Shown one piece after another: positions 710 through 43,117 of a DNA stretch of 64,000 nucleotides. Both the position numbers and the translations under genes were made by a program. The stretch's first letter is position 1. Each line of letters starts with the position of its first letter. The stretch is from Agelas oroides (taxonomy: Eukaryota > Porifera > Demospongiae > Agelasida > Agelasidae): NCBI GenBank assembly GCA_949130485.1, contig OX422185.1:18293353-18357352 (forward strand), written 5' to 3'. A model generated the notes under the pieces. That model made no database searches. It worked only from the letters and a program-made list of their open reading frames with translations, and had not been told where the DNA came from.

Positions 710-2998
710 ATGGCTCTGCAGCCCCAGCCACAGTATGAGTTTCACTATCAAAGAGTTGAACTTCTCAAAACTGAGTCTCTTGGCATTGGATCGTATGGTG
801 CCGTCTGCAAGGCCATGTGTGATGACTTGCCCTGTGCTGCTAAAATCCTCCACCCCGCCCTCTTCCAGTTCACTGCCCCAGGAACTACAAGTGTTATGAG
901 AAAGTTTGAGCAAGAGTGTCGTCTTTTGAGTGCCATAAAGCACCCACACATTGTCCAGTACTTGGGCACATACCATGATCCTGAGTTGAGGCTGCCAGTA
1001 CTCTTAATGGAGTTAATGGATGAGAGTTTGACCCGATTCCTGGAGCGATCCCGCGAACCAATCCCCTATCACACTGAGGTGAATCTCTGCCACGACATAG
1101 CCCTGGCCCTCTCCTACCTCCACTCTAATGGCATCGTCCATCGTGATCTATCAAGCAACAATGTGTTGCTGATTGCAGGCAGCAGGGCCAAAGTGACAGA
1201 CTTTGGAATGGTGAAGCTTTATGATGTGAACCGCAGCACTGCCCACCTCACCCCCCTCACTCTGTGCCCAGGTACAACTGTGTACATGTCCCCTGAAGCA
1301 CTGAAAGATCGACCAGTCTATACCAACAAGCTGGACAGCTTCTCTCTCGGTGTTCTTTGTGTTCAGATCATGATCCGACAGTTTCCTGACCCTGGGGACC
1401 GTGTGATCGAAGTTGAAGATTCACGATATCCAACAGGTAAAATTGAAGTGCCTGTTCCTGAAATTGATCGTCGTCAATCCCACATTGACCTGATTGATCC
1501 CGCCCACCCCCTGCTACCAGTTGCTCTTGACTGCCTAAAGGACAGAGACAGAGAAAGGCCATCTTGTCATGAGCTTTGTGGTCGCATGTCCACACTGAAA
1601 GCATCCCCCACGTACACTGAGAGTGTGCAACTGTCTCAAGTGAGTACCAAACCAATACAAAGTGTCAACAGAGAAAGTAGAGAGAGAGAAATACAACAAT
1701 CACAACAGACCCGAGACCTTCAACAACAGCTGCACAATAAAGATGACCAACTGGAAGAGAAGGAACAAGAAAATCAGCAACACCGGCAGCAGATTCTGGG
1801 ACTACAGACTCTTCTCACTGCCAAAGATGAACAACTAGCTGGTAAAGACCACCAGCTACAACAGAAAGAAGTAGTCATGGCTGCACATCAGCAAGAGATT
1901 CAGCAGCTCAGACAACAGCTGCAATCCAGTGAGCAGGTGGCTGAAGAGATCCAACGAAACCTTCAGGAGAGAGAGAAGATGATTCAAGATCTGCAGAGAC
2001 ACGTCCTAGAACTACAACAGCAGTTGAGGCAGACAGGAGGTCAGAGACAAGAGGAAGGGGAGGCTAGTGGTGCAGCAGCAAGTGGGGGTAGCATCAAGCT
2101 GAGGTGGAGAGATGGTGGGAGGGCACCATGTGAGATGTATGGAGCAGTGTCTGCTGTGGATGGGAGTGTGGCATATTGTCAACAAGGTGGGTCCAAGAGG
2201 GTATTTGCCTACAATTCCACTAATAACAAATGGTCTGAACTTCCCGAGTGTCCTAACTATGGTTTCAGTCTAGCAGTTGTCAACAGTCTCCTCACTGCCA
2301 TTGGTGGGAAGACATCAAACCGTGAAGTTACAAACTCACTCCTCAGCCTCACTGATAATAAGTGGACAAAGTGGTTTCCTCCTATGCCAACCAAGCGCCG
2401 GTGGACCGTTGTAGTGTGCAGTGGCAGGTCTCTGGTTGTGGCAGGAGGAGTGGGTGAAGGATACAAGTACCTGAGTACTGTTGAAGTGATGGACACAGAG
2501 ACCCTACAGTGGTCCATAGCCAGCAGCCTCCCACACCCACTTTTCGCAACATCAGCAACACTTTGTGGAGACCAGGTTTATATGCTGGGAGGTTTTTATG
2601 AGAGTGAGGAAGAATCAGAGTCAGTATTCACCTGCTCACTGGCTGCCCTCCTCCAGTCTTGCCAGCCACAGTCCCTGGTAGCACAACTGAAGACTTTGTC
2701 ATTAGCTGGCAAACCTAAAGTCTGGCACCAGCTAGCTGATACCCCAGTTACCTTATCCACATGTGCCTCACTGCAGGGACGACTGCTGGCAGTGGGTGGG
2801 TGTGGTTCAGATGATGAATACACAACTGCCATTCACATGTACAACACAGCAACCAACTCATGGGAGGTCATCAGCCACATGGCAAGTCCTCGATCTCAAT
2901 GTCTAGTGGCAGTCCTCCCTCACAATGAACTCATGGTAGTGGGTGGTTGTACAGCTGGTGCCAAGACCAACTCTGTAGAAATTGCTTGGATAATTTGA
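710..2998 (+). CDS. kinase / coiled-coil / Kelch protein, paralog 1
   Basis: A 762-residue single-exon protein, probably an intracellular kinase with a protein-interaction platform. The kinase domain covers about residues 15-300: glycine loop GIGSYGAV (25-32), ATP lysine K45 in AAK, helix-C glutamate near 69, catalytic HRD 144-146 with N151, DFG 164-166 and SPE 194-196. The catalytic loop reads HRDLSSNN, with Ser where Ser/Thr kinases have Lys and without the tyrosine-kinase AAR pattern, so substrate class is uncertain; overall it looks TKL-like. Residues about 320-445 form a Gln/Glu-rich coiled coil, followed by a Gly/Ala linker. Residues about 465-762 form a Kelch propeller, with GG doublets in AIGG, VAGG, MLGG, AVGG and VVGG. 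There is no signal peptide or membrane segment. The ATG follows a putative acceptor by 13 bases and lines up with the starts of the three paralogs. All key catalytic residues are present. The biological role is unknown. Confidence 0.93.
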   Translation: MALQPQPQYEFHYQRVELLKTESLGIGSYGAVCKAMCDDLPCAAKILHPALFQFTAPGTTSVMRKFEQECRLLSAIKHPHIVQYLGTYHDPELRLPVLLMELMDESLTRFLERSREPIPYHTEVNLCHDIALALSYLHSNGIVHRDLSSNNVLLIAGSRAKVTDFGMVKLYDVNRSTAHLTPLTLCPGTTVYMSPEALKDRPVYTNKLDSFSLGVLCVQIMIRQFPDPGDRVIEVEDSRYPTGKIEVPVPEIDRRQSHIDLIDPAHPLLPVALDCLKDRDRERPSCHELCGRMSTLKASPTYTESVQLSQVSTKPIQSVNRESREREIQQSQQTRDLQQQLHNKDDQLEEKEQENQQHRQQILGLQTLLTAKDEQLAGKDHQLQQKEVVMAAHQQEIQQLRQQLQSSEQVAEEIQRNLQEREKMIQDLQRHVLELQQQLRQTGGQRQEEGEASGAAASGGSIKLRWRDGGRAPCEMYGAVSAVDGSVAYCQQGGSKRVFAYNSTNNKWSELPECPNYGFSLAVVNSLLTAIGGKTSNREVTNSLLSLTDNKWTKWFPPMPTKRRWTVVVCSGRSLVVAGGVGEGYKYLSTVEVMDTETLQWSIASSLPHPLFATSATLCGDQVYMLGGFYESEEESESVFTCSLAALLQSCQPQSLVAQLKTLSLAGKPKVWHQLADTPVTLSTCASLQGRLLAVGGCGSDDEYTTAIHMYNTATNSWEVISHMASPRSQCLVAVLPHNELMVVGGCTAGAKTNSVEIAWII

Positions 2999-3068
2999 TG
3001 AGGTGGTAGAAATGGTTTCATACAGTACACACACTATGTAAATTAAATGGGAGACCACAGTTAGGTCA

Positions 3069-3339
3069 AAGACTTAAAAAACATTAAAAATGTAAAAGGA
3101 TGTAGGGATGGCATGCCAAAAAGCATGCAAACAAGGTAGGGATGATACAATAGTGAAGGTAAATTTACAAAGCCTCATCCCTGCATCGTTTTCACATTAG
3201 TTTGAACTGTAATGTAAAAAGATGTAGGGATAGGGCTTTGTAAATTTACCCTCACTATTATATCATCCCTACCTTGTTTGCATGCTTTTTGGCATGCCAT
3301 CCCTACATCCTTTTACATTTTTAATGTTTTTTAAGTCTT
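3069..3339. repeat. near-perfect 270-bp palindrome (hairpin MITE)
   Basis: The arm beginning gacttaaaaaacattaaaaa at 3071 is mirrored by the sequence ending at 3337. The arms are almost identical over about 100 bp each and continue, with mismatches, to a central loop of about 12 bases near 3205-3216. It lies just 3' of kinase gene 1 and could fold as one long hairpin in RNA. Its terminal motifs do not match the other MITE families here. Confidence 0.85.
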
Positions 3340-3450
3340 GTTTCTGTACTTTTTTGATGTTAATCTCAGTTACAGTTAGACCTAAGAATATTTCAATTCA
3401 AAACTTGAAACGAGATTGACAATTTAGTAGTGGTTCCAAGCATATAATAC

Positions 3451-3594
3451 CTGAATGGCCAGTTCTCCAGTGCGAGTCATTATGGTGAGCACCAGCAGTG
3501 CATGGTCGTCCATGGTCATTTCTAGTGAACCCCTCAGCACTCACCTTCTCCAATAAAGGTAAAATAAATGACAGCATCTTTCCTGTTCCGGTTC
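3451..3594 (-). pseudogene. DDX21/50-like helicase exon relic, copy A (motif I)
   Basis: The minus strand encodes the Walker A exon of a DEAD-box helicase of the DDX21/DDX50 type: GTGTGKMLSFILPLLEK, then an acidic linker. The reading frame is lost before the expected PTREL motif (motif Ia), although the exon end ATTCAG|gtatt is still visible at the DNA level. The intact version of the same exon is at 15309-15445. No neighbouring exons in order were found, so this is a dead duplicated fragment. Confidence 0.75.
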
Positions 3595-3683
3595 CTATAA
3601 TTAGGGAACAAAAAACAGCTTTACAGGATAAACTCATATAGGCAAATCTGTATATGTAACTAGAAGAATGTACACACATGAGA

Positions 3684-3770
3684 GTAGCCTCGTTCCCTGG
3701 TTCTCCCCACACACACACAAATGAATAAAGCAATGAAAGCTGGGCGGAGCCTGAGAATGAGGCTATTGTG
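3684..3770. repeat. short MITE of the tagcctcgttcc family
   Basis: Ends resembling gtagcctcgttccctgg and cctgagaatgaggcta face each other in inverted orientation. This is a short member of the family that recurs about twenty times in the window. Confidence 0.55.
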
Positions 3771-3845
3771 GGTGTAATACTTTAACTTGCCTTGTTACCC
3801 TGCCACACACAGGCATTCAAACTGATCTTAGAAGCCTGCTCATTG

Positions 3846-3960
3846 AATGATTCAGCCTACACACAATAGCTCCTCAAGCCAGGTGTTCTGGGTTCAATCC
3901 CCAGTAGCTGCCAGCCTTTTCACTTTCCTCTATTTTCATCTCATAACATCTATTGCATGA
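3846..3960 (+). repeat. tRNA-derived SINE-like element, family 2, copy 1
   Basis: A pol III box-B-like word, gggttcaatcccc, is followed by a conserved body (gctgccagccttttcacttt) seen also near 15750-15870, 48950-49045 and 63705-63780. A convincing box A is not visible, so the tRNA origin rests mainly on box B and on the multi-copy nature. Confidence 0.5.
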
Positions 3961-4021
3961 GCCAAAATCTTTCAAAAACACTAAATGTTTTAGAAACACA
4001 AAGTCAATTGCTGCACGCATG

Positions 4022-4039
4022 CGCATACACACACGCACA

Positions 4040-4115
<76 letters not shown>
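4022..4115. repeat. CA microsatellite with adjacent helicase intron remnant
   Basis: About 90 bases of CA dinucleotide, impure at the left edge. Immediately right (4116-4155) lies cctcctcaatcctccctc...cttcaag, the intron end that precedes the DDX21/50 C-terminal exon on the minus strand at 5581-5625. The microsatellite and intron end were thus copied here in the opposite orientation without the exon. The long reading frames across the CA tract are artefacts. Confidence 0.9.
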
Positions 4116-4120
<5 letters not shown>

Positions 4121-4155
4121 AGATGCCATTCCCTCCTCAATCCTCCCTCACTTCA

Positions 4156-5240
4156 AGACACACACACAGGCTTTTATAACTTCACTTTTGGTATTGACTA
4201 CACTATACACAGATACTTCAAAATTAGTGGGCTCAAACAGTGAACTGAGCCTTCCTAAAATTTCTCTAACCATAAAACACCTTCACTCTACTATTCCGCA
4301 GCTGTTCTTATAAACAACTGGCTGAACCTAACACTTGTGGGTTTAGTGAGGACTCACTTCCGCTATGAATACACTGAGTAGTGTCATGAATATTGTTATT
4401 AGAGCCTTCAGCTGTGCTGGTCTTGTGACCAGAACCTCCTGAATGTACAGAAAGTGGGGTCGCTCTCTAATTGAGAGCTCCAATCAGATTCCAGGGTGTA
4501 ATTGGTGTTGAATGATGCAAACAAGTGTATTTGAGGGGCACATTTCACATTTGGTAGTTGTGGCTTGGTAGAAAATAGCAACACAATTAAATGAGAACAA
4601 AGTACCTGACTGGCCGGCTATCAAATTGGCAGGATTTTTAAATTGGTGATTGGGGACAAACTTGCCAAACTAAAACCCTTGCCAAATTTCCCAGTTATAG
4701 TGAATTTATTTGCACATTTACAGTATACAAGAATGCAGAAACGGGAGAACAATGCACCAATGAAATGCACGCTCTTATAACAGTATTCACAATAAAACTT
4801 ATGTCATACAATGTGAAACCCATAAGTGTTTCATTGAGGGACCACTTACAAACAAGCTTCATTTTGGTTTCAATATCTGCATGGATAAACACTGCCAGAT
4901 GAAATTAGCTTTTTTGTTTCTTGAATTTTCATAGAAGGCTCATTAATGGACCTAAACACCTCATGAAAGTGAAATTGAACTTTATGTTCAGTCAATGAAC
5001 ACACACTTCATCAGCAACAAATTCCAAGTCAGTCTCCTCCTCCCACACACACTTCACACCCTCTCCTCTCCTCCACTCAACACATGGGCTTGTCCAATCA
5101 CATCCTTGCAATCAAACACTGAATTATATGATACGTATTGAATGGGAAACAACCACTTGACTCCACATTCTTTCAATGTCTTTTGTGTTGGTTTACTGAT
5201 ACAGTGGACAAGATGGACAAGAGAGGGGATCAGAGGGGGG
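4156..5240. other. intergenic DNA, shared segment of the duplicated unit
   Basis: No gene seen. Parts (4300-4560 and 4680-4990) recur at 49240-50460 and partly at 16100-16720, for example the words gaatgcagaaacgggagaac and cacctcatgaaagtgaaatt. These appear to be intronic or flanking DNA of the helicase fragment carried along in segmental duplication. Confidence 0.5.
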
Positions 5241-5455
5241 AGGGAAAGATTGTGTGCATGATACGTAGGATGAAGAACGGCCGAGGAAAAGATGGAGAGG
5301 GACGGAGTAAAGGGGGGCAAAGAGGGGGAGAGGCAAAGAGGGGGAGAGAGGTAGGGAGAAAGGAAAGCGTAATATTAAGAATGAGAGGAAGGAGAAAGAT
5401 GGGGAGAAAGAGAGTAGAGGGAGGAAGGGGGAAAGGGGGAACAAGGGAAAAAGTT
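5241..5455. repeat. purine-rich low-complexity tract
   Basis: A strand-asymmetric run of GA-rich sequence (units such as gagggggagag). Reading frames through it are compositional. The right part (from about 5375) is repeated at 6295-6350. Confidence 0.7.
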
Positions 5456-5463
5456 ATGCTCAC

Positions 5464-5580
5464 CTGTTGAGCTGAGAGAAGTGATCGTGTGGATATTTCT
5501 CTCGCTCCTGATGTACAGGCAAGGGCAGCTGCCAGTGCATTGGTTGCTCCTCTCTCCTCAATGAGCTGATCAGCTGCCTT
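5464..5580 (-). pseudogene. DDX21/50-like helicase C-terminal exon, copy 1 (intact as an exon)
   Basis: The minus strand holds a 117-base, 39-codon open exon encoding ADQLIEERGATNALAAALA and ending at ATRSLL-type residues. It matches the conserved region that follows the helicase core in DDX21/DDX50 (EKLIEEKGAVEALAAALA in human DDX21, from family knowledge). It is bounded by a pyrimidine-rich acceptor ending cttcaag and a donor CAG|gtgagc, both well formed. It lies upstream, in minus-strand sense, of the motif I relic at 3451-3594, the wrong order for one gene, so it is called a relic although the exon itself is undamaged. Confidence 0.7.
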
Positions 5581-5620
5581 CTTGAAGTGAGGGAGGATTG
5601 AGGAGAGAATAGTATCTATA

Positions 5621-5625
<5 letters not shown>

Positions 5626-5674
<49 letters not shown>

Positions 5675-5687
5675 ATGCGTGTGTGTG
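5626..5687. repeat. GT microsatellite
   Basis: A GT dinucleotide tract interrupted by catgcg. On the minus strand it sits in the intron, 45 bases upstream of the acceptor of the helicase exon at 5464-5580. Confidence 0.9.
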
Positions 5688-6370
5688 GTGAGGTGGTGTG
5701 TATATGTGTTGTGGGTAAGGGAATTTGAAGGGGAGGTGAGAAGGGGAAAGGAGAGACTCACTCAGCATACAGATAGAAGCCAAGGCTGGTATGTTAGCTA
5801 CCTGAGGGTAAATAGGTACCCGTACAATGCTGTTGATCTGTTTCTTTAGCCTTAAATTTTTGGCTTGCTTGTAGCTCAGGTAGTGCAAAAAGTTTACGGT
5901 AAGACAGGCCCATTTTCACATATTTTGTGCATTTTTTTCCGGGCTATCCGCCGATATATAGATCGTGCAGATCGGTCCAGGCGTAACAAAATGTGACAAA
6001 ATTTCGTGCGGGGATGTCGATCGAGTCACGCACGACAATGTTGACAAAAGCCGTTCGTACGCCACCTAACCTTGCCTGACGCCGACCAAAAGTGGATTTT
6101 CGTGAAGTTAAGGTACCATTGTATAAAAACGAGCGCAAGTCCAGCTTGAATCGGCCATGGTTTGAGAGAGCTGTCTGTTGGAAAAGGCAGGAAGTAAGCG
6201 GCATGCTAATTACACGTTGGAATGAAGCCTCCCGGGCACTTCCTGTTCTTGCTTTAAAATCCAATTATCTGGACCGCTGGCTTAACGACTGTTAAGAATG
6301 AGAGGAAGGAGAAAGATAGGGAGAAAGAGAGTAGAGGGAGGAAGGGGGAAAGGGAAATGGTTATGCTCAC

Positions 6371-6487
6371 CTGCTGAGCTGAGTGAAGTGATCGTGTGGA
6401 TATTTCCTTCACTCATGATGTACAGGCAAGGGCAGCTGCCAGTGCATTGGTTGCTCCTCTCTCCTCAATGAGCTGATCAGCTGCCTT
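6371..6487 (-). pseudogene. DDX21/50-like helicase C-terminal exon, copy 2 (stop codon)
   Basis: Duplicate of the exon at 5464-5580, with the same length and splice borders. A base change turns the Gly codon after ACTS into TGA, so this copy is disrupted. The mutated copy sits beside an open one, as expected after tandem duplication of a fragment under little constraint. Confidence 0.75.
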
Positions 6488-6527
6488 CTTGAAGTGAGGG
6501 AGGATTGAGGAGAGAATAGTATCTATA

Positions 6528-6637
<110 letters not shown>

Positions 6638-6907
6638 TGAGGTGGTGTGTATATGTGTTGTGGGGAAAGGGAATTTGAAGGGGAGGTGAGAGGGGAAAGG
6701 AGAGACTCACTCAGCATACAGATAGAAGCCAAGGCTGGTATGTTAGCTACCTGAGGGTAAATAGGTACCCGTACAATGTTGTTGATCTGTTTCCTTAGCC
6801 TGCCAAATTGTACACATTTTTACTTCTTACAAATCATTAATTTATTTGTATATACCACATTTCTTAGAATATTTGGTAGTTTAAAAATGAAATATTATAT
6901 TTACATT

Positions 6908-7370
6908 AACAAAGTTGAAATTCATAGAGATGCTTATCACAACCACCAGATTCCACTGCTACCATATAAGGCAACATTGAAATCTGTTGCCTGTTTGGGG
7001 GTGTGTCAGTACTGCCAGTTTGAACTAGCACAAAGTCAGGACTGCAGGAGCAACCTGTATCAAAGAACTCGTGTGAAGTCAGTTCCTGAGAAGTGAATCA
7101 AGTCTGGTCTATCATACACAAAGAAGGTAGGAAGTTCAATAGATTTAGGCACAAGTAAAATTAATTGTTAGTCTCTCATCCCCGTCTATGCCCATTTTAA
7201 CTGTCCATGCAGGCTTTGTTTTAACCTAATTAACTTTGGTGGGCAGGGTTTTGGTAAGTTTTTCTGAATATGATTACTAATTTTAAAAATAAAATTAAAA
7301 TCCCAACTACCATCCCTAGTGTGGATAATTAATAGGAATAATTAAGTATGCTTAGCTTTGCAGGCATAGC
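6908..7370 (+). promoter_or_regulatory. orphan upstream cassette (no kinase gene follows)
   Basis: A copy of the kinase upstream cassette: gaaattcatagagatgctta near 6917, ccactgctaccatataaggc near 6954, and a conserved exon end ggcagggttttg|gtaagt near 7230-7248 with a consensus-like donor. The intron part runs to gcttagctttgcag, where a MITE (7371-7985) interrupts it. No kinase coding exon follows, so this marks a lost gene copy or a transposed promoter. Confidence 0.6.
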
Positions 7371-7985
7371 TAGCCTCATTCCCAGGTCTTGTGCATGTTC
7401 GTCGCTTGCAGTACGAAATTTGTGCGAAAGGCCTGGTCCATTTTATCACGTGATGTGTGTCACAGACATATTTTTATGTCACACCCAGCATACAGCGGTA
7501 CAGCAAATATCGCCATGTTGCAGAGATAAGCACAAATTGAGTTGGAAGAACGTAACAAAGGCCACACACATACGATAGACTAAAATAGTAAACTAGAGAT
7601 GAAGAAGACGAGGAGCCAGAATCTAGGCTTAACCTAGTAACACGATGTGGCCATCAAGTTCAAATCTCACCCCCAAGAGAACCTGGAGTTCAGTGCTACA
7701 AGGTATTTGATTTATATGTCTAATATCCAGCTAAATATGGCAGCTTGTGCTCTTTCACTGCCGAGACTTTTAGCACTTGGGTAATTTCGCACACGAACCA
7801 TCGCTGTGATCTATGGGGCCTCTTTCAATGCTGAACAGTGCGCTAGTTCATCTATGACATCATTGATTTCAGGAGAATGGACGTGACGTAGGCTGCGTCA
7901 CCCATCACGTGATAAAATGGAGCAGGGAATCTGCACGAATTTTGTGTTGCAAGTGACAAACGTGCAAGGCCTGGGAACGAGGCTA
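7371..7985. mobile_element. MITE of the tagcctcgttccc family with about 90-bp inverted ends
   Basis: The left end tagcctcattcccaggtctt and the right end aaggcctgggaacgaggcta are inverted copies. The similarity continues inward through ccattttatcacgtgat on both sides. The interior shows no transposase; a small ORF at 7348-7578 crosses the left end and is not credible. Confidence 0.8.
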
Positions 7986-8142
7986 ATGTATAGCCACACT
8001 TTAAAAAAGGGCATGTGTTAACATACAAGGAGAGCCTTCAAACTTCATATTCTTTACAAAGTTTCCCTATTGGATAATCAAAGTGTTGCCACTGATAAAA
8101 TATGAAGTTACTGTGGCAACCATGCACAACAGGGGGTTACTT

Positions 8143-8640
8143 TAGTACTGTAGTCTCACGAAAGAGTGCCCACCCCCTATTTTTGGCCCAATTTCCTGTT
8201 TATGGTCAAAGTTTACTCGAGTGTGCGTCCAGCCTGGAGCGAGCTTCACGTGGCTATTGGAGTGCAACCGAGAAGCACAGCCTCAAGCGCTATGCATATC
8301 TGAGGTAAGAAACTTCGTCAACAAAGGTTATTACAAAGCAGCTTGCGTAGACAGACGCAGCTAATGCGGCATGCACTGCGAGCTACACTATGCTCATAGT
8401 GACATCATGCCGTTCAGAGTGTAGAGTTCCGTCAGCACTTGACTTCAAAGCCGCTGGTGGTTCCGTTGTACGTTATTGTTTGTCCAATTATTTGCTTCGA
8501 GGGCATCGAGTCACTGTAAACATGACATGGGCGCCATTTAGTGGTTAAATGCGGAGACACTCGAAAGAGCGCCCATCCCCCTGTTTGGCAGGATCGTAAG
8601 GTGCTCTGTCCATGAGCGCTCTTTCATGAGACTACAGTAT
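8143..8640. mobile_element. inverted-repeat element, actgtagtctcacgaaagag family
   Basis: The left end actgtagtctcacgaaagag and the right end ctctttcatgagactacagt are inverted. Related single ends occur near 33270-33312 and at both ends of the insertion near 40397-40727. The interior is non-coding. Confidence 0.65.
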
Positions 8641-9158
8641 TGCCATACGTGCATTTGCAGATAATTCTAGCATATGTACGTACAAACACTCCCCATGCCA
8701 CTGTAAGAAAATCAGAGATTGATTTAACCCATGATGGGCCATCTCAGTTGTAGTTTGGCCTGATCCAGGCCCAGGCCTTGGACCAACTCCCACCTTTTGC
8801 CATGGTTTAGGGATTTTTTCCTTTGTCTGCTCAAGGTTCCAATAAAGCATGAATACTTCCACGCAAATTTAACAATACATGACTGAGTTTAATCCTATAG
8901 TACATAAATATTTGCCTGAGTCCAGCCAATAATCAGAGAGTCGGTATATTCTGTATGTGTGGATGGTGCGGACGTGCAATATATGCAATACTTAATAAAA
9001 TTTCGATGATTATTTTTTTAAGCTCTGTCAGTACAGTTCTGTGTTGGTCAGTTGTCATGTGATCGAAATCAGGAAATCAGCTTCACAAAGCACTCGAAGG
9101 ATTGTACAGAGAGTGGTTGGCCTTCATCAGATTCTAGCTGGCAATGTTACACATAATT
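8641..9158. other. intergenic, homologous to 18836-18960 and 20020-20180
   Basis: No gene seen. Words such as taatcctatagtacataaat and the gagtccagccaataat block show that this spacer and the spacer between genes 2 and 3 are copies of one ancestral segment. Confidence 0.55.
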
Positions 9159-9163
9159 GTTAC

Positions 9164-9822
9164 GTGCATCTCAGCATCTGGTCTTCTTTGGTGGTCCTAG
9201 TAGTGTACCGGTGCACCTCAGTACCTGGTCTTCTTTGGTGGTCCTAGTAGTGTACCGATGCATCTCAGCATCTGGTCTTCTTTGGTGGTCCTAGTAGTGT
9301 ACCTGTGCATCTCAGCATCTGGTCTTCTTTGGTGGTCCTAGTAGTGTACCGGTGCATCTCAGCATCTGGTCTTCTTTGGTGGTCCTAGTAGTGTACCAGT
9401 GCATCTCAGCATCTGGTCTTCTTTGGTGGTCCTAGTAGTGTACTGGTGCACCTCAGTACCTGGTCTTCTTTGGTGGTCCTAGTGGTGTACCGGTGCATCT
9501 CAGTATCTGGTCTTCTTTGGTGGTCCTAGTAGTGTACCAGTGCACCTCAGTACCTGGTCTTCTTTGGTGGTCCTAGTGGTGTACCGGTGCATCTCAGCAT
9601 CTGGTCTTCTTTGGTGGTCCTAGTAGTGTACCAGTGCATCTCAGCATCTGGTCTTCTTTGGTGGTCCTAGTAGTGTACCAGTGCATCTCAGTACCTGGTC
9701 TTCTTTGGTGGTCCTAGTAGTGTACCGGTGCATCTCAGTATCTGGTCTTCTTTGGTGGTCCTAGTAGTGTACCAGTGCATCTCAGCATCTGGTCTTCTTT
9801 GGTGGTCCTAGTAGTGTACCAG
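9164..9822. repeat. 47-bp minisatellite, 14 copies
   Basis: The unit ggtcttctttggtggtccta plus a variable stretch (gtgcatctcagcatct or gtgcacctcagtacct) repeats every 47 bases. Copies differ by a few recurring substitutions that occur in patterns, indicating homogenisation of unit variants. Confidence 0.95.
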
Positions 9823-9882
9823 CGCAATATTCATGTGCTATGAATACCCAGAGTTCATGCAGTATTCATTTCTTAATCGCAG

Positions 9883-10243
9883 GTTTGTGCCAGAGGAGGG
9901 GGTGGAACTCTGGCTATATTCATGGCCCTGTGTTTGTGCCTGAGGAGGGGGTGGAACTCTGGCTATATTCATGGCCCTGTGTTTGTGCCTGAGGAGGGGG
10001 TGGAACTCTGGCTATATTCATGGCCCTGTGTTTGTGCCTGAGGAGGGGGTGGAACTCTGGCTATATTCATGGCCCTGTGTTTGTGCCTGAGGAGGGGGTG
10101 GAACTCTGGCTATATTCATGGCCCTGTGTTTGTGCCTGAGGAGGGGGTGGAACTCTGGCTATATTCATGGCCCTGTGTTTGTGCCTGAGGAGGGGGTGGA
10201 ACTCTGGCTATATTCATGGCCCTGTGTTTGTACTTGAGGAGGG
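9883..10243. repeat. 49-bp minisatellite, about 7 copies
   Basis: The unit contains gtttgtgcctgaggaggggg followed by tggaactctggctatattca. Internal copies are nearly identical; the first and last are degenerate. Remnants of the single-copy sequence are seen near 20180-20260 (minus strand), so the array expanded after the spacer was duplicated. Confidence 0.95.
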
Positions 10244-11614
10244 CTAATTTAGTAGTGGTTCTGAGATGCATGTAACAGTAACAGGATCATTACCATGTAT
10301 GGTGATAATGAAGTAACACCTGCTGTGCATGGTTGCCATGGTAACTCCATATTGTATCAGGTTTGAAGGCAATGTGACTACGTTTGCATGTTAACCACTT
10401 CAGGGATGTTATATTTTAACAGGCATCGTAACACCCTTTATTTGACAGTGTGGTATTAATACTTGATTTCTTGACATGACACATTTGACATGTTGAAGAT
10501 TAAAGAACACATCACAACACAGAGAATGTACTGCTTCATTGGGGCGAGCCTGAGCGAGCCCCACACTAGTGTGACTGCATTGCACACGTGTGTGTATCTA
10601 TGCTTGTTTGTTTGTTTGTTTGTTTGTTTGTTTGGACCGACACCTTACCGTAAATTTCAAATGAGCACATTCAAATATCTCACGATTGAATGTCCATGTA
10701 CGCCGACGTGTACAGTACTTCAGCTAAGCCGTGAGAATGAGCGTGCAGAGCTACTGCCAAACTTACCCTTCATGTGGTGGTCGGAACTTTGAAGATAAGC
10801 TTAGATCGACTTAAAAAAAAAATTTGTAAAAAATTTTAAAAAAGAAGGAGTTTAGTAGAGTGCTGTAGTGTCAGTAGCTGTGAGTAGTACGTAGTGCCTG
10901 CTTGTGAAAGCAAGCTTGTGTCTAGAAGCAGCAGAAAGGCCACAGTGGCCAAGACTGTACTCATTGGGCAGGCCCAGGTCTTGCGATCGTATGCCAAGCC
11001 TAGTTGGTGACCGTGGCCAGGTGCTTCGAGTGCTGGTCTGGGCTTTAACTAGAATACGCAATTTATCGTTTGTGCTATGCTCTGGTACCCAAGGGAGCTG
11101 AACAGTGGTTGTGTGTGGAACAGAGCCGTGAGTGGTTTAGCGACATAAGGGGGAGAGGTGGGGCTAGTAATGCTTGCTTCCACTCGTGAATGAGCCCCTC
11201 CCGTAGACAAGCTGTGAATTTTTGGAAATGTGCATTCATTTTGGTGCAGTCAAAGTTGTTCATTCCAAGAGTAGTGACAAACATGAGTCTAGCCTGACTT
11301 TGAGAGCAGCTCTGAACAAAAGCTGGCATAGATTGATTGGAGATACATTGGTGGTTGGGACGCTACCTACAGTGAGTGTGTAGATGCGTCCATCGAGTGG
11401 CAATTTTGGGCTCATGAATATATTAATGAGCCGCTAAAACCCTTTGTAAAATTAGGCAAAGCAAGATTGCCCTAAAGCAAACCCTAACCCTGAAACTAGG
11501 AGTAACCCTGGTCCTGACTGTAACCCAAGTTTATGTTTTCGTTAACCTCCACCGAAAGACTTCACCGCCACCTTAATTAATTAATACAGTGAAATTATTT
11601 CATTTGGTGTGAAC
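10244..11614. other. intergenic spacer
   Basis: No gene supported. 10290-10470 is homologous to 20340-20500 (caggcatcgtaacaccctt in both). 10538-10600 is a copy of a dispersed repeat beginning ggggcgagcctgagcgagcc that recurs near 17540, 19015, 19990 (minus), 34622, 38466, 46119 and 56118. A TTTG microsatellite lies at 10606-10635. The remainder (10850-11600) shows no structure that I can name. Confidence 0.5.
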
Positions 11615-12048
11615 TACCGTATAGCCGGAAAATTTGGCGGGGAATTAAATTTGGCAGTTTGGCGGTCTGAGTTGAAACCGCCAAATTAAAATCCGCCAAT
11701 ATTATTTTCGCCTGCAACGCGCATAATGACGTAATGCATGCAGTAGCGCTTTTGGCTCCACCCGGCGCCCCTCTACACGAGCTGTACACGTAGCTAGCTC
11801 GGCGCTAGTACGCTGCCAGTTATATTTATTGTAAATCTGCAGAGTCACGGCTTAGTTCAAGTACCTCAAACGAGAGGATGGCAAACGCTCCCTGATAAAC
11901 ACGCATGCAATGTTATGGCAATGTTTATAATGATGTAATACGCTGCGAGGCACCACCGCCAAATTTAAATTACGCCAATATTTTTTATGCTCGATTTGAG
12001 GCCAAACCGCCAAATTTAATGACCGCCAATATTTCCGGCTATATGGTA
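11615..12048. mobile_element. TA-flanked inverted-repeat element (ccgtatagccgg family)
   Basis: The left end taccgtatagccggaaaatt and the right end aatatttccggctatatggta are inverted. Interior repeats of ccgccaaattt form further inverted pairs. It abuts the upstream cassette of kinase gene 2. No transposase; the minus ORF at 11852-12298 spans the element and cassette and is not considered a gene. Confidence 0.7.
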
Positions 12049-12050
12049 TG

Positions 12051-12579
12051 TAACAAAGTTGAAATTCATAGAGATGCTTATCACAACCACCAGATTCCAC
12101 TGCTACCATATAAGGCAACTGTGGAATCTGTTGCCTGTTTGAGGGGCGTATTAGTTTAAACCACCACAAAGTCAGGACTGCAGGAGTAACCTGAACTAGT
12201 GTGAAATCAGTTCCTGAGAAGTGGATCAAGTCTGGGATACTCAGTCTATCATACGTACACAAAGAAGGTAGGAAGTTTAATACATTTGTGCCAAGCAAAA
12301 TTAATGATTAGTTTCTCATTTCCATTCGTGCCCACTTTAATTGTCTGTGCAGGCGTTTTTTAACTTAAACTTTGGTGGGCAGGGTTTCGGTAATGATTGA
12401 TTGGCATAAATACAACTACACTACCAGGTTTGGCAAAACTTTGTCTGGAAATTTTTACTAATTTAAAAATAAAATTAATAACCTTACTACCATCCAGAGT
12501 GTGGATGGTTAGAAACTAACAATTAAGTTTGCTGTACTTTATTGAAGTTGTAACTTTAACTTTCAGGTTTTGAAGAGCA
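12051..12579 (+). promoter_or_regulatory. upstream cassette of kinase gene 2 with 5'UTR intron
   Basis: Same architecture as cassette 1: conserved core at 12061-12350, exon end agggtttcg|gtaatg (GT at 12390-12391), and acceptor actttaactttcag ending at 12566, 13 bases before the ATG. The intron would be about 177 bases. Donor and acceptor are both well formed, which makes this the clearest of the cassettes. Confidence 0.6.
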
Positions 12580-14895
12580 ATGGCTCAGCAGCCCCAGCCA
12601 CAGTATGAGTTTCACTATCAAAAAGTTGAACTCCTCAAAACTGAAGAGCTTGGCGTTGGATCGTATGGGGCCGTCTGCAAGGCCATGTGTGATGACTTGC
12701 CCTGTGCTGCTAAAATTCTCCACCGCACCCTCTTTCAGTTCACTGCCCCTGGAGCTACAAGTGTTATGCGAAAGTTTGAGCAAGAATGTCGTCTTTTGAG
12801 TGCCATAAAGCACCCACACATTGTCCAATACTTGGGCACATACCATGATCCTGAGTCGAGGCTGTCAGTGCTCTTAATGGAGTTAATGGATGAGAGTTTG
12901 ACCCGATTCCTGGAGCGATCTCGCGAACCAATCCTCTATCACACTGAGGTGAATCTCTGCCACGACATAGCCCTGGCCCTCTCCTACCTCCACTCCAATG
13001 GCATTGTCCATCGAGACCTATCAAGCAACAATGTGTTGCTGATCGCAGGCAGCAGGGCCAAAGTTACAGACTTTGGAATGGTGAAGCTTTATGATGTGAA
13101 CCGCAGCACCACCCACCTCACCCCCCTCACTCTGTGCCCAGGCACAACTGTGTATATGTCCCCAGAAGCACTGAGAGAACAACCAGTCTACACTGACAAG
13201 CTGGACAGCTTTTCTCTTGGTGTTCTGTGTGTTCAGATCATGACCAGACAGTTTCCTGACCCTGGGGACCGTTTCAAGATCATGGAAATCAATGACCCAA
13301 GGATACCGTCGGGTACAGTTCAGGTCAGTGTTCCTGAAATTGAGCGTCGACAATCCCACATTCACCTGATTGACCCAGCCCACCCCTTGCTACCAGTTAC
13401 TCTAGACTGCCTAAGGGACAGAGACAGAGAAAGGCCATCTTGTCATGAGCTTTGTGGTCACATGTCCACACTGAAAGCATCTCCCAAGTACACTGAGAGT
13501 GTGCAGCAGTCTCAGGTGAATACCAAACCAACACAAAGTGCCAACAGAGAAAGTAGAGAGAGAGAAATACAACAATCACAACAGATCCAAGACCTTCAAC
13601 AGCTGCACACTAAAGAAGACCAGCTGCACACACTACGTGACCAGCTCCAAGAGAAGGAACAACAAAATCAGCAACAACGGCAGCAGATTTTGGGACTACG
13701 GATTCTTCTCTCCACCAAAGATGAGCAACTAGCTGGTAAAGACCACCAGCTACAACAGAAAGAAGCAGCCATAGCCACAGGCCAGCAAGAGATTCGGCAG
13801 CTCAGACAACAGCTGAAATCCAGTGAGCAGGTGGCTGCAGAGTTACATCGAAACCTTCTGGGGAGAGAGAAGATGATTCAAGATCTGCAGAGACAAGTCC
13901 TAGAACTACAACAGCAGTTGAGGCAGAGAGGAGGTCAGAGACAAGAGGAGGGGGAGGCTAGTGGTGCAGCAGCAAGTGGTGGTAGCATCAACCTGAGGTG
14001 GAGGGATGGTGGGAGGGCACCACGTAAGATGTATGGAGCAGTATCTGCTGTGGATGAGAGTGTGGTATATTTTCAACCAGGGGAGTATGAGGTGTGGGCC
14101 TACAATTCTACTAACAACAAATGGTCTGAACTTCCTGAGTGTCCTAACGATGGTTTCAGTCTGGCAATGGTCAACAGTCTCCTCACTGCCATTGGTGGGG
14201 TGACATCAAATAATGAAGTCACCAACTCACTTCTCAGCCTCACTGATAATAAGTGGGCAGAAAGGTTTCCTCCCATGCCAACCAAGCGCTGGGTGACTGT
14301 TGTAGTGTGCAGTGGCAGGTCTCTAGTTGTGGCAGGAGGATCAACAGGATACAAGAAACTAAAGCTGAGTACAGTTGAAGTGATGGACACAGAGACCCAA
14401 CAGTGGTCCACAGCTAGCAGCCTCCCACACCCACTCTTTGAAGCATCAGCAACACTCTGTGGAGATCATGTTTACATGCTGGGAGGTGATCAGAATGAAA
14501 AGCAATTAAAGTCAGTATTTACCTGCTCACTGGCTGCCCTCCTCCAGTCTTGCCAGCCACAGTCCATGGGAGTACGACTGAACACTTCGTCATTAGCTAG
14601 CAGACCTAAAGTGTGGCACCAGCTAGCTGACACCCCAGTTACCTTATCCACATGTGCCTCACTACATGGACGACTGCTAGCAGTGGGTGGGTGCGATTCA
14701 GATAATAAAGAAACTGCCATTCACATGTACAATACAACAACCAACTCCTGGGAGATCATCAGCCACATGACAACTCCACGATGTCGATGTTCAGTGGCAG
14801 TCCTCCCTCACAATGAACTCATGGTAGTGGGTGGGGAGACACCTGTTAGTGGCTGGACTGGTACTGACTCTGTAGAAATTGCTAGTATCATTTGA
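12580..14895 (+). CDS. kinase / coiled-coil / Kelch protein, paralog 2
   Basis: A 771-residue intronless coding exon, collinear with paralog 1. Kinase landmarks: glycine loop GVGSYGAV (25-32), K45, HRD 144-146 with N151, DFG 164-166, SPE 194-196. The segment after FPDPGDR is the long type (IMEINDPRIPSG), shared with paralog 3 but not with 1 or 4. The coiled coil carries an extra QLHTL heptad-like insertion also seen in paralog 4. The Kelch propeller starts near residue 469 and contains AIGG, VAGG, MLGG, AVGG and VVGG blade motifs. All catalytic residues are present. Loops between Kelch strands differ most among the paralogs, while the kinase core is nearly invariant. Ligand and substrate are unknown. 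Confidence 0.93.
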   Translation: MAQQPQPQYEFHYQKVELLKTEELGVGSYGAVCKAMCDDLPCAAKILHRTLFQFTAPGATSVMRKFEQECRLLSAIKHPHIVQYLGTYHDPESRLSVLLMELMDESLTRFLERSREPILYHTEVNLCHDIALALSYLHSNGIVHRDLSSNNVLLIAGSRAKVTDFGMVKLYDVNRSTTHLTPLTLCPGTTVYMSPEALREQPVYTDKLDSFSLGVLCVQIMTRQFPDPGDRFKIMEINDPRIPSGTVQVSVPEIERRQSHIHLIDPAHPLLPVTLDCLRDRDRERPSCHELCGHMSTLKASPKYTESVQQSQVNTKPTQSANRESREREIQQSQQIQDLQQLHTKEDQLHTLRDQLQEKEQQNQQQRQQILGLRILLSTKDEQLAGKDHQLQQKEAAIATGQQEIRQLRQQLKSSEQVAAELHRNLLGREKMIQDLQRQVLELQQQLRQRGGQRQEEGEASGAAASGGSINLRWRDGGRAPRKMYGAVSAVDESVVYFQPGEYEVWAYNSTNNKWSELPECPNDGFSLAMVNSLLTAIGGVTSNNEVTNSLLSLTDNKWAERFPPMPTKRWVTVVVCSGRSLVVAGGSTGYKKLKLSTVEVMDTETQQWSTASSLPHPLFEASATLCGDHVYMLGGDQNEKQLKSVFTCSLAALLQSCQPQSMGVRLNTSSLASRPKVWHQLADTPVTLSTCASLHGRLLAVGGCDSDNKETAIHMYNTTTNSWEIISHMTTPRCRCSVAVLPHNELMVVGGETPVSGWTGTDSVEIASII

Positions 14896-15308
14896 TAAGG
14901 TGGTTTTACATCTGAGACCAGTACTGTATAAATTGTTTCATATAGTACACACACTATGTAAATTGAATGTGAGACCACAGTTGGGTCATATTGTCGTATT
15001 TATTGATGCCACTTTCTGTTACATACATTATTCATATGTTCGGAACGCTAACAGTCAAAAATCGTGAATTTTATTTGCAGAGCAGAAATTATGTTACAGC
15101 TTAAAATGCGACCTTTCCAGCTGATTGTGTACTGGTTGGACTCACATATCTGGAGTTGACATTTGTTGTCTCTAACAGAAATTTTTTTTGTACTAGGTTG
15201 TACTATGATATTTTCTGAATACCTGAATGGCCAGTATCAGACAAATTCATGATATTTTCCTGTACAGCTTTATAATATGGTGATAATTCAATATTACTGT
15301 CTAAATAC
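14896..15308. other. 3' flank of kinase gene 2
   Basis: The 3' region (acacactatgtaaattgaat, gagaccacagttgggt) is shared with the other three genes, so it is probably 3'UTR or terminal sequence copied with the gene. No canonical aataaa is visible close to the stop codon. Confidence 0.5.
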
Positions 15309-15445
15309 CTGAATGGCCAGTTCTCTAGTAGGAGTCATGGTGAGCACCAGTGGTGGTCTTCCCTGGTCATTTCTAGTGAACCCCTCAGCAATCAACTTCT
15401 CCAGTAATGGTAGAACAAATGACAGCATCTTTCCTGTTCCAGTTC
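15309..15445 (-). pseudogene. DDX21/50-like helicase exon, copy B (motifs I and Ia intact)
   Basis: A clean 137-base exon on the minus strand. Acceptor ttttatag| opens GTGTGKMLSFVLPLLEK (Walker A), and the exon ends in PTRELAIQ (motif Ia) at CAG|gtattt. Length and motif spacing fit the DDX21/DDX50 helicases. Copies A (3451-3594) and C (48558-48694) are damaged versions. No flanking helicase exons (DEVD, SAT) were found, so this is a duplicated exon fragment, although open; a very long intron to exons elsewhere cannot be excluded. Confidence 0.7.
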
Positions 15446-15709
15446 CTATAAAATGACTTTTCCGGTTTTTAGAATTAGAGAACAAAAACCAGCTTTAACT
15501 CATATAGACAAATCAGCATATGTAATCTAGAAGAATGCACTCATTTGTAGAAGTAGGCTCATCTCAGGCTTTCCCACAGACGAATGAATAAAGCGACGGA
15601 AAGCTGGGCAGAGCCTGGGAATGTGGCTATTGTGGGTGTAATACTTGTCTTGTCACCCACATAGGCATTCAAACTGATTTTAGAATCGTGCTCATTGAGT
15701 GATTTAGCC

Positions 15710-15880
15710 TACACACAATAGCTCATCAAGTCAGGTGTTCCAGGTGTTGTGGGTTCAATTCCCAGCACCTGCCGGCCTAGCCTCGTACCCGGGCCGTGTG
15801 GCCTGGATACGAGGCTACTGCCGGCCTTTTCAATTACGTCTATTTTCATCTCATAACATCTCATGCATGACGCATAATGT
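15710..15880 (+). repeat. SINE-like element family 2, copy 2, with nested short MITE
   Basis: Box-B-like gggttcaattcccag is followed by the family body. A 40-bp hairpin (tagcctcgtacccgggcc facing ggatacgaggcta) is inserted at about 15777-15817, directly before the ctgccggcc body, which is duplicated on each side. Confidence 0.55.
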
Positions 15881-15905
15881 TTTAAAAACACCAAGTCAAT
15901 TTCTG

Positions 15906-15908
<3 letters not shown>

Positions 15909-15973
<65 letters not shown>

Positions 15974-31981: not shown

Positions 31982-31982
31982 G

Positions 31983-40813: not shown

Positions 40814-43117
40814 ATGGCTCAGCAGTCCCAGCCACAGTATGAGTTTCGCTATCAAAGAGTTGAACTCCTCAAAACTAAAGAGCTTGGTGTTGGATCGTAT
40901 GGTGCCGTCTGCAAGGCCATGTGTGATGACTTGCCCTGTGCTGCTAAAATTCTCCACCGCACCCTCTTTCAGTTCACTGCCCCAGGAGCTACAAGTGTCA
41001 TGCGAAAGTTTGAGCAAGAGTGTCGTCTTTTGAGTGCCATAAAGCACCCACACATTGTCCAGTACTTGGGCACATACCATGATCCTGAGTCGAGGCTGCC
41101 GGTGCTCTTAATGGAGTTAATGGATGAGAGTTTGACTCGATTCCTGGAGCGATCCCGTGAACCACTCCCTTACCACACTGAGGTGAATCTCTGCCATGAC
41201 ATAGCCTTGGCTCTTTCCTACCTCCACTCCAATGGCATTGTCCATCGAGACCTGTCAAGCAACAATGTGTTGCTGATCGCAGGCAGCAGGGCTAAAGTGA
41301 CGGACTTTGGAATGGTGAAGCTTTACGATGTGAACTGCAGCACCGCCCACCTCACCCCCCTCACTCTGTGTCCAGGTACAATGGCGTACATGTCCCCAGA
41401 AGCACTGAAAGATCGACCAGTCTACACTTACAAGCTGGACAGCTTCTCTCTCGGTGTTCTTTGTGTTCAGATCATGACCCGGCAGTTTCCCGACCCTGGG
41501 GATCGTGTGACTGAAGTTGAAGATTCACGATACCCAACAGGTACAGTTGAAGTGCGTGTTCCTGAAATCGAACGTCGACGATCTCACATTGACCTGATCA
41601 ACCCAGCCCACCTCCTGCTGCCAATTGCCCTCAATTGCCTAAAGGACAGAGACAGAGAGAGGCCATCCTGTCATGAACTTTGTGGTCACATGTCCACACT
41701 GAAAGCATCCCCCAAGTACACTGAGAGTGTGCAGCAGTCTCAAGTGAATACCCAACCAACACAAAGTGCCAACAGAGAAACTCGAGAGAGAGAATTACAA
41801 CAATCACAGCAGATACGAGAGCTTCAACGACAGCTAGACACACAGAGTGATCAGCTGCACACACTGGGAGTCCAGCTGAGAGAGAAGGAACAAGAAAATC
41901 AGCAAAAACAGGAACAGATGTTTGGACTACGGACTCTTCTCACTGCCAAAGATGAACAACTAGCTGGTAAAGGCCACCAGCTACAACAGAAAGAAGTTGC
42001 ACATCAGCAAGAGATTCAGCAGCTCAGACAACAGCTGCAATCCAGTGAGCAGGTAGCTGCAGAGTTCCAGCGAAACCTTCTGGACAGAGAGAAGATGAAT
42101 CGAGATCTGCAAAGGCAAGTCCTAGAACTGCAACAGCAGTTGAGGCGGAGAGGAGGTCCGAGACGAGAGGAGGGGGAGGCTAGTGGTGCAGCAGCAAGTG
42201 GTGGTAGCATCAAGCTGATGTGGAGGGATGGTGGGAGGGCACCATGTAAGATGTATGGAGAAGTGTCTGTTGTGGATGGGAGTGTGGCATATTTTCAACC
42301 AGTGGGGTCCAAGAGTGTATTTGCCTACAATTCCACTAATAACAAATGGTCTGAACTTCCTGAGTGTTCTAACTCTTATGTGAGTCTAGCAGTGGTCAAC
42401 AGTCTCCTCACTGCCATTGGTGGAAAGACATCAAACAATGAAGTTACCAACTCACTCCTCAGCCTCACTGATAATAAGTGGACAAAACAGTTCCCTCCCA
42501 TGCCAACCAAGCGCTGTGTGACTGCTGTAGTGTGCAGTGGCAGGTCTCTGGTTGTGGCAGGAGGAGTGGTAGAAGGAAGAAAGAGATTGAGTGCTGTTGA
42601 AGTGATGGACACAGAGACCCTACAGTGGTCCACAGCCACCAGCCTCCCACACCCACTCCACCAAGCATCAGCAACACTCTGTGGAGACAAGGTTTACATG
42701 CTGGGAGGTTTTGATCAGAATGACAAACAATCAAAGTCAGTATTCACCAGCTCACTGGATACCCTCCTCCAATCTTGCCAGCCACAGTCCCTGGGAGCAC
42801 GACTGAAGACTTTGTCATTAGCTAGCAAACCTAAAGTGTGGCACCAGCTAGCTGATACCCCAGTTACCTTATCCGCGTGCACCTCACTGCATGGACAACT
42901 GATGGCAGTGGGTGGGTATGATTCAGATGGTAAAGAAACAACTGCCATTCACATGTACAACACAACAACCAACTCCTGGGAGGTCATCAGTGACATGGCA
43001 ACTCCTCGACGTCGCTGTTTAGTGGCAGTCCTCCCTCACAATGAACTCATGGTAGTGGGTGGGCTTATGACTTATGTCGAGACTGACTCTGTAGAAATTG
43101 CTAGCATCGTTAGATAA
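40814..43117 (+). CDS. kinase / coiled-coil / Kelch protein, paralog 4
   Basis: A 767-residue intronless coding exon. Catalytic residues are intact: GVGSYGAV (25-32), K45, HRD 144-146 with N151, DFG 164-166, SPE. It combines features of the other paralogs: N-lobe as paralog 2 (HRTLFQFTAPGATSV), CPGTMAY near paralog 3, the EDSRYPTG segment as paralog 1, the QLHTL coiled-coil insertion as paralog 2, and a C-terminus as paralog 3 (TYVETDS). The Kelch propeller begins near residue 465. The final codons differ from the others (IVR before the stop). The intact frame over 2.3 kb argues against a pseudogene despite the disrupted upstream cassette. Confidence 0.92.
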   Translation: MAQQSQPQYEFRYQRVELLKTKELGVGSYGAVCKAMCDDLPCAAKILHRTLFQFTAPGATSVMRKFEQECRLLSAIKHPHIVQYLGTYHDPESRLPVLLMELMDESLTRFLERSREPLPYHTEVNLCHDIALALSYLHSNGIVHRDLSSNNVLLIAGSRAKVTDFGMVKLYDVNCSTAHLTPLTLCPGTMAYMSPEALKDRPVYTYKLDSFSLGVLCVQIMTRQFPDPGDRVTEVEDSRYPTGTVEVRVPEIERRRSHIDLINPAHLLLPIALNCLKDRDRERPSCHELCGHMSTLKASPKYTESVQQSQVNTQPTQSANRETRERELQQSQQIRELQRQLDTQSDQLHTLGVQLREKEQENQQKQEQMFGLRTLLTAKDEQLAGKGHQLQQKEVAHQQEIQQLRQQLQSSEQVAAEFQRNLLDREKMNRDLQRQVLELQQQLRRRGGPRREEGEASGAAASGGSIKLMWRDGGRAPCKMYGEVSVVDGSVAYFQPVGSKSVFAYNSTNNKWSELPECSNSYVSLAVVNSLLTAIGGKTSNNEVTNSLLSLTDNKWTKQFPPMPTKRCVTAVVCSGRSLVVAGGVVEGRKRLSAVEVMDTETLQWSTATSLPHPLHQASATLCGDKVYMLGGFDQNDKQSKSVFTSSLDTLLQSCQPQSLGARLKTLSLASKPKVWHQLADTPVTLSACTSLHGQLMAVGGYDSDGKETTAIHMYNTTTNSWEVISDMATPRRRCLVAVLPHNELMVVGGLMTYVETDSVEIASIVR

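Follow-up and report, generated by a model that had tools for sequence, protein, structure and literature searches.

A large kinase/coiled-coil/Kelch gene family with a diversifying propeller face in the sponge Agelas oroides

A 64-kb stretch of the Agelas oroides genome (C3:18293353-18357352, referred to here as the window and numbered from its first base) carries four genes in which a protein kinase is joined to a coiled-coil-like middle part and a Kelch propeller. In the family to which these genes belong, the Kelch scaffold is under purifying selection and the face built from the DA and BC loops of the propeller is under strong diversifying selection, as one would expect of immune or self/non-self receptors. 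We consider it most probable, at roughly 0.6, that this large germline family encodes sensor kinases, soluble and probably cytosolic, whose propeller recognition face is diversifying and is shuffled by gene conversion.

The four genes are complete open reading frames (ORFs) on the + strand, each encoding the three parts in a single open frame:

710..2998, + strand: g1, intronless kinase/coiled-coil/Kelch gene, 762 amino acids; Kelch part 2081-2995
12580..14895, + strand: g2, intronless kinase/coiled-coil/Kelch gene, 771 amino acids; Kelch part 13975-14892
22600..24750, + strand: g3, intronless kinase/coiled-coil/Kelch gene, 716 amino acids, with a short coiled coil and DVG in place of DFG; Kelch part 23833-24747
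40814..43117, + strand: g4, intronless kinase/coiled-coil/Kelch gene, 767 amino acids; Kelch part 42200-43111

All four match Pfam PF00069 (E 4e-39 to 5e-35) and Kelch_1 (PF01344; E 6e-26 to 3e-23) above curated cut-offs and in one frame, bearing out a first-pass annotation of this DNA that had described four intronless paralogs of this architecture. That annotation was also right about the unusual HRDLSSNN catalytic loop, found in 4/4 window genes and in 40/40 full-length copies genome-wide, and about Kelch loops and a coiled-coil length that differ between copies. Its description of the kinase as almost invariant was too strong; the kinase is conserved, with dN of 0.04-0.09 and dS of 0.25-0.40 among the window copies. 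At the protein level, g2-g4 are 80-84% identical to g1.

Diversifying selection on the Kelch propeller face

A protein search of the assembly (259 Mb, 141 contigs) yielded at least 59 kinase/coiled-coil/Kelch loci in 76 matching stretches, with 59 of 1440 candidates scored. We examined 49 of the 59 loci, namely 48 that were fetched (three of them being g1, g2 and g4) together with g3, leaving out the 10 others. Forty proved to be full-length, uninterrupted ORFs, and the nine truncated or interrupted ones (L014, L019, L030, L033-L037 and L040) were dropped. For codon analyses by maximum likelihood, the set was reduced to 32 copies by leaving out the divergent L038, L039, L041, L047 and L049 and the near-identical duplicates L009, L011 and L042. 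These analyses used home-made code on fixed FastTree topologies, with a separate tree for each domain and naive empirical Bayes for site assignment.

Under the one-ratio model M0, the ratio of non-synonymous to synonymous rates (omega) across the 32 copies was 0.229 for the kinase, 0.90 for the coiled coil and 0.737 for the Kelch domain. Comparison of M1a with M2a for the Kelch domain gave twice the log-likelihood difference (2dlnL) of 429; an omega of 3.75 was assigned to 11.8% of codons, and 33 sites were selected at a posterior of about 0.9 or higher. The separate comparison of the two domains that the first-pass annotation had proposed thus sets a kinase at omega 0.229 against a Kelch class at 3.75. 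The signal persisted when the Kelch analysis was confined to 191 ungapped codons (2dlnL 135.7), when the copies were split into 12 from the array and C46 (163.8) and 20 others (166.5), and when each quarter of the domain was given its own tree (34.8-163.5). The two disjoint copy sets shared 13/19 selected sites (p 3e-14). Simulations under the M1a null reached a maximum 2dlnL of 5.5 (n=20), and a recombination null, in which tip labels were shuffled every 25 codons, reached 44 and flagged up to 7 sites (n=12).

Tree-free ratios of non-synonymous to synonymous diversity (piN/piS) among the window copies were 1.14 in the loops, 0.42 in the scaffold, 0.24 in the kinase and 0.68 in the coiled coil. 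Among the 12 array copies, the loop value was 1.29 (0.99-1.73), and array comparisons gave 0.47-0.48 for the scaffold and 0.22 for the kinase. The motif windows used for piN/piS and for the hydropathy and offset analyses were set after the selected sites were known; the model-based mapping described below is independent of them.

For that mapping we used an AlphaFold2 (AF2) model of the Kelch domain built from a 47-row alignment, a six-bladed propeller with a predicted local distance difference test score (pLDDT) of 92.1 and a predicted template modelling score of 0.89. Its nearest solved folds include KLHL20, designed SAKe Kelch proteins, KLHL3, KLHL12 and KEAP1, with complexes such as KLHL20-DAPK1, KLHL3-WNK4, KLHL12-DVL1 and KEAP1-Nrf2 among them. 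Loops were assigned from the printed strands of the model, with single-residue bridges scored as loop. The 33 sites fell into BC loops (20), DA loops (9), strand ends (3) and a CD insertion (1), and none into AB loops, so that DA and BC loops together hold 29/33 (hypergeometric p 2e-10). Counted from the first glycine of the double-glycine motif, the sites recur at similar offsets from blade to blade, not all of them in every blade: about 15 and about 14 residues before it, and 2, 5, 6 and 8 after it. In blade 1, where this motif is degenerate, the anchor was placed by hand. On g4, the sites lie as follows:

42245..42256, + strand: DA loop, blade 1; selected sites 478, 479 and 481
42296..42316, + strand: BC loop, blade 1; selected sites 495 (the final strand B residue) and 497-501
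42362..42376, + strand: DA loop, blade 2; selected sites 517 and 521
42437..42439, + strand: BC loop, blade 2; selected site 542
42488..42490, + strand: DA loop, blade 3; selected site 559
42566..42586, + strand: BC loop, blade 3; selected sites 585, 588, 589 and 591
42659..42664, + strand: DA loop, blade 4; selected sites 616 and 617
42710..42730, + strand: BC loop, blade 4; selected sites 633, 636, 637 and 639
42827..42829, + strand: CD insertion, blade 4; selected site 672, outside the face
42917..42937, + strand: BC loop, blade 5; selected sites 702 and 708 (first residue of strand C)
43010..43015, + strand: strand D end and the DA loop leading into blade 6; selected sites 733 (the final strand residue) and 734
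43064..43081, + strand: BC loop, blade 6; selected sites 751 and 753-756

In KLHL20 and KEAP1, the pocket for substrate or peptide is built from the DA and BC loops (PMC6720452, PMC4668279). This pocket is where the best-conserved sites gather in KEAP1, KLHL2, KLHL3, KLHL12 and K13 (PMC6650413), whereas in the kinase-Kelch family the same face is the fastest-changing part. The Kelch loops are thus not under uniform purifying selection (window loop piN/piS above 1, M2a 2dlnL 429), and their variable sites are neither buried nor synonymous. Either result could have gone against the diversifying sensor or receptor family proposed from the sequence at first sight; both support it.

A second array of stand-alone propellers

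A genome search with the Kelch part alone gave 132 matching stretches, among them 24 stand-alone Kelch propeller loci within 557 kb (C20:6342633-6899673), 2/24 of which contain a stop or are split. These copies start with MAEVWDVQQLKL or close to it; the two stand-alone propellers searched match Pfam PF01344 and neither BTB nor BACK, and no kinase- or coiled-coil-like ORF of at least 90 amino acids was present in about 3.8 kb upstream of two loci. For two propeller loci, a copy with an identical score sits exactly 111,287 bases away, a spacing that could reflect a recent segmental duplication or an uncollapsed haplotype; the fetched pair, L057 and L058, is identical in DNA. Of the 24 loci, 21 were fetched, and 19 were analysed after leaving out L068, which a text filter removed even though its frame is open, and L058, the duplicate of L057.

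The 19 copies have a nearly fixed scaffold and loops that vary in sequence and length. Their M0 omega was 1.53, and M2a gave a 2dlnL of 713.8 with 11.5% of codons at omega 13.4, falling to 460.4 on ungapped codons only; the recombination null (n=12) reached 12.2, and the tree-free loop piN/piS was 1.55 (1.13-2.25). Of the selected sites, 32 could be mapped: DA or BC loops held 29, AB and CD loops held none, and 18/32 coincided with sites selected in the kinase family (p 3.5e-12). All 19 faces were distinct. Loops assorted almost independently (4/91 loop pairs at p<0.05) and distant scaffold blocks were mostly weakly linked (1/6 block pairs at p<0.05), with residual linkage in 2/6 loop-block pairs; this near-independence fits exchange between copies.

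Variation at the selected codons of this array falls mostly on the first two codon positions, a pattern that had suggested targeted mutagenesis of the kind performed by diversity-generating retroelements. We set this idea aside as unnecessary, because a change at the third position usually leaves the amino acid unaltered, and because in the kinase family every codon position varies.

Kinase head, family turnover and genomic setting

The kinase domain of g4 can be laid out as follows:

40874..41689, + strand: g4 kinase domain, residues 21-292; K45, E69, HRD 144-146, N151, D164 and E196

Six catalytic residues (the VAIK Lys, the alpha-C Glu, the HRD Asp, the catalytic-loop Asn, the DFG Asp and the APE Glu) are kept in 40/40 full-length copies, and the DFG Phe in 38/40. 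Mean pairwise amino-acid identity of the kinase across these 40 copies is 0.81; judged by its residues, the head is conserved and catalytically complete. Its best matches among PDB sequences, an EGFR entry, IRAK4, CTR1 and TNNI3K, suggest by best-match comparison alone a TKL-like kinase. An AF2 model of the full-length protein built from four near-identical rows had an overall pLDDT of 36 and was not usable, its portion above pLDDT 60 being the middle part, a helical linker. By hydropathy, family members have no N-terminal hydrophobic segment and neither a signal peptide nor a clear membrane span; a threshold of 1.6 was exceeded in 2/40 copies, and the g4 instance (residue 568) lies inside the propeller. 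The kinase-family proteins are therefore probably soluble and cytosolic.

The window genes belong to an array of 193 kb (C3:18143699-18336466) that reaches about 150 kb upstream of the window and holds 18 loci, counting fragments and broken copies and excluding two short relics in the window. Duplication and exchange have left the following traces, together with those relics:

678..16425, no strand assigned: parts of a recent segmental duplication; identity to the copies lying about 76-77 kb upstream on this contig is 99.1% for 678-4489 and 98.7% for 11080-16425
22936..23292, + strand: g3 conversion patches; residues 113-120 and 223-231 hold all 13 differences from L042
29450..29596, + strand: kinase-domain relic, query residues about 200-253 (tblastn E down to 1e-15)
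44132..44266, + strand: relic of a Kelch C-terminus (tblastn E down to 1e-14)

The gene g3 has its own near-identical copy, L042, 77 kb upstream. Compared with their upstream copies, g1, g2 and g3 differ at 1, 5 and 0 positions per about 910 bases of the Kelch part and at 14, 8 and 13 positions per about 840 bases of the kinase part. The alleles in the two g3 patches are common to g1, g2, L013 and L011 (7/7) and to L006 (6/6), a pattern that reads as a signature of gene conversion. A run-length permutation test gave p<0.01 for 13/105 copy pairs, duplicate pairs included. Some of the near-identical pairs could be uncollapsed haplotypes.

Searching with the kinase alone gave 133 matching stretches, and the kinase head also occurs without a Kelch tail. 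In L051 (C18:5105070-5107900), for which Pfam gives a kinase match alone, a double-length coiled coil is followed by a tail of tyrosine-containing repeats of about 20 residues with HSYCN[IV] and by a proline-rich end with YENI; this tail could be a phosphotyrosine adaptor tail. A separate kinase array lies at C7:9751660-10211932, with eight stretches 37-40% identical and open frames of 399-456 amino acids. A sequence search found no relatives in viral contigs and one match in other genome contigs, a kinase of 24% identity in a bacterial assembly.

Elsewhere in the window, a near-perfect palindrome of 271 bases (3069-3339; 92.7% self-complementary), resembling a miniature inverted-repeat transposable element, begins 71 bases past the g1 stop. 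A 151-amino-acid ORF with a HIRAN domain (44627-45082; Pfam E 1.2e-7) lies closely 3' of the Kelch relic, and a cysteine-rich ORF of 172 amino acids with a sub-threshold zinc-ribbon match (31143-31661) stands immediately 3' of a 205-bp tandem repeat (30507-31104). Two tRNA-Ser(AGA) genes in opposite orientation (54742-54815 and 58526-58598) are 85% alike across 88 bases. Minisatellites with units of 47, 49, 68 and 29 bp occupy 9164-9820, 9883-10243, 21531-21921 and 63165-63562; several reading frames stay open through the last of these, and the overlapping ORFs to which it gives rise at 63 kb are probably spurious.

A candidate recognition repertoire and its alternatives

In the model that we favour, copies multiply through tandem and segmental duplication and swap short tracts via gene conversion. 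The variable propeller face may bind changing ligands, such as proteins or peptides of microbial, viral or non-self origin; the coiled coil, varying in length, would oligomerise the receptor, and clustering driven by ligand would turn the kinase on. The 24 stand-alone loci, whose propellers share this hypervariable face, may provide a companion recognition pool of adaptors, decoys or co-receptors. Such a system could act in defence or allorecognition.

Several observations weigh against this sensor-kinase model. The HRDLSSNN motif is without the lysine usual in the catalytic loops of Ser/Thr kinases, so that kinase activity is not assured and neither is substrate specificity. M2a also gives a signal in the coiled coil (2dlnL 60.3) and a weak one in the kinase (13.8) across the 32 copies; the kinase value is within the recombination null of the Kelch partition, the coiled-coil value is without a null of its own, and we claim neither. 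When the full set of 32 copies is taken together, tree-free piN/piS in the loops comes to 0.92, below 1, and the five divergent copies (L038, L039, L041, L047 and L049) gave no significant selection (2dlnL 4.9) in a test of little power. The naive posterior picked out 88-97 codons in 5/20 runs under the null, with a third class at omega 1.05-1.13; posteriors mislead when that class is close to omega 1 and are no evidence alone, the observed class being at 3.75. Finally, 14/20 stand-alone propellers contain a 19-residue window above hydropathy 1.6, close to the end of the protein and, in the four located, at residues 270-302, which makes the solubility of the stand-alone propellers less certain.

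The variable face might instead read polymorphic proteins of self or partner, not of microbes, in allorecognition or mating recognition, with the kinase reporting fusion compatibility. The propellers of fungal HET-D/HET-E show the same pattern of selection, in d-a and b-c loops and with concerted evolution (PMC1805685), yet several dozen loci on many contigs exceed what most allorecognition systems use, and we regard this as unlikely, if a serious contender. A further possibility is that each propeller recruits a different endogenous substrate to its kinase and that subfunctionalisation of the duplicates diversified the loops, with no conflict with non-self involved. Propellers of KLHL proteins and KEAP1 do choose endogenous peptides with this face (PMC6720452, PMC4668279), but their pockets, like that of K13, show the opposite pattern, being most conserved in KEAP1, KLHL2, KLHL3 and KLHL12 (PMC6650413), and even the stand-alone propellers, close relatives of one another, have diversified strongly (M0 omega 1.53); substrate targeting thus appears distinctly improbable.

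Technical explanations fare worse. Positive selection might be mimicked by misalignment, by recombination or by a loss of constraint in copies that are decaying, and gene conversion is real here, with free recombination inflating the test up to a 2dlnL of 44 and flagging up to 7 sites. The observed values of 429 and 714 are nevertheless far above the nulls, the signal survives restriction to ungapped codons, separate trees and tree-free counts in two arrays, and the two separate arrays select the same sites while the kinase of the same genes is constrained, so that the controls run largely refute an artefact, which we hold to be very improbable. Copy number could also have been inflated by uncollapsed haplotypes, making the family smaller than counted, as the near-identical copies of g1-g3 at 76-77 kb and the propeller duplication at exactly 111,287 bases (L057 = L058) might indicate. 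Full-length copies differ far more overall (kinase mean identity 0.81, n=40), and the near-identical L009, L011, L042 and L058 were excluded before the codon tests; as an account of the family this is barely credible.

Among known systems, the closest working analogue of the kinase/coiled-coil/Kelch family is, by comparison of its features, the fungal HET-D/HET-E family. In Podospora, positively selected codons of these proteins lie in the d-a and b-c loops of the WD40 blades and the copies evolve in concert; a repeated family, a conserved signalling module, selected propeller loops and exchange between copies are traits that the NWD genes HET-D, HET-E and HNWD share with the sponge genes (PMC1805685). 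The fungal proteins combine NACHT with WD40, whereas the sponge proteins combine a protein kinase with Kelch, and NACHT, NB-ARC and WD40 are absent from the Pfam results of the four window genes; moreover, exchangeable near-identical repeat units vary in the fungi, and whole propellers vary here. BTB-Kelch proteins (KLHL/KEAP1) share the six-bladed Kelch propeller with its DA/BC-loop face. They carry BTB and BACK, neither of which has a Pfam match in the four window genes, and their face is conserved in KEAP1 and KLHL2/3/12, in contrast to the hypervariable face described here (PMC6650413). IRAK and other TKL kinases may have the same type of kinase domain (IRAK4, CTR1 and TNNI3K being among the best PDB matches), but IRAK has a death domain, for which the four window genes have no Pfam match. 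Plant receptor-like kinases join a variable sensor to a conserved kinase, as here; they have a signal peptide and a transmembrane segment, neither of which is seen here by hydropathy, and the candidate sensor of the sponge proteins is C-terminal, past the coiled coil. Coral tachylectin-2 is without a kinase head. A product of a putative immunity gene, it is a recognition protein under positive selection in an early-branching animal (PMC2880987), a trait shared with the sponge family; it is not a Kelch-kinase. The Kelch motif is among domains drawn with Eph-related kinases, in a figure legend that describes neither a coiled-coil/Kelch array nor a diversified face (PMC6993872). Sharing its principle with HET-D/HET-E but not its domains, the family is not classed here as NLR, BTB-Kelch or receptor-like kinase.

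In the parts consulted of the open-licence PubMed Central literature, we found no description of a kinase-coiled coil-Kelch family or of a hypervariable Kelch repertoire. Kelch-motif genes are among differentially expressed sponge genes in PMC6208332 and PMC11000336, without the kinase/coiled-coil/Kelch architecture in the portions available; in those of PMC4704026 and PMC1420674 the word 'kelch' was not found, and PMC10037820 concerned plant F-box/Kelch only. We consider the chances about evenly balanced that the sponge has an animal-evolved, germline-encoded and conversion-shuffled hypervariable Kelch repertoire, large in size and both kinase-linked and stand-alone. Its members would then form a novel class of variable receptors acting inside the cell in immunity or allorecognition, comparable to the propeller NLRs of fungi except for their kinase head. 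If the sensor-kinase interpretation is true, the selected sites identify where a large candidate receptor repertoire probably contacts its ligands and make non-self sensing directly testable in this sponge. It would also mean that fungi, with WD40 and NACHT, and this sponge, with Kelch and a kinase, each came to use a propeller face diversified in its DA and BC loops as a recognition repertoire.

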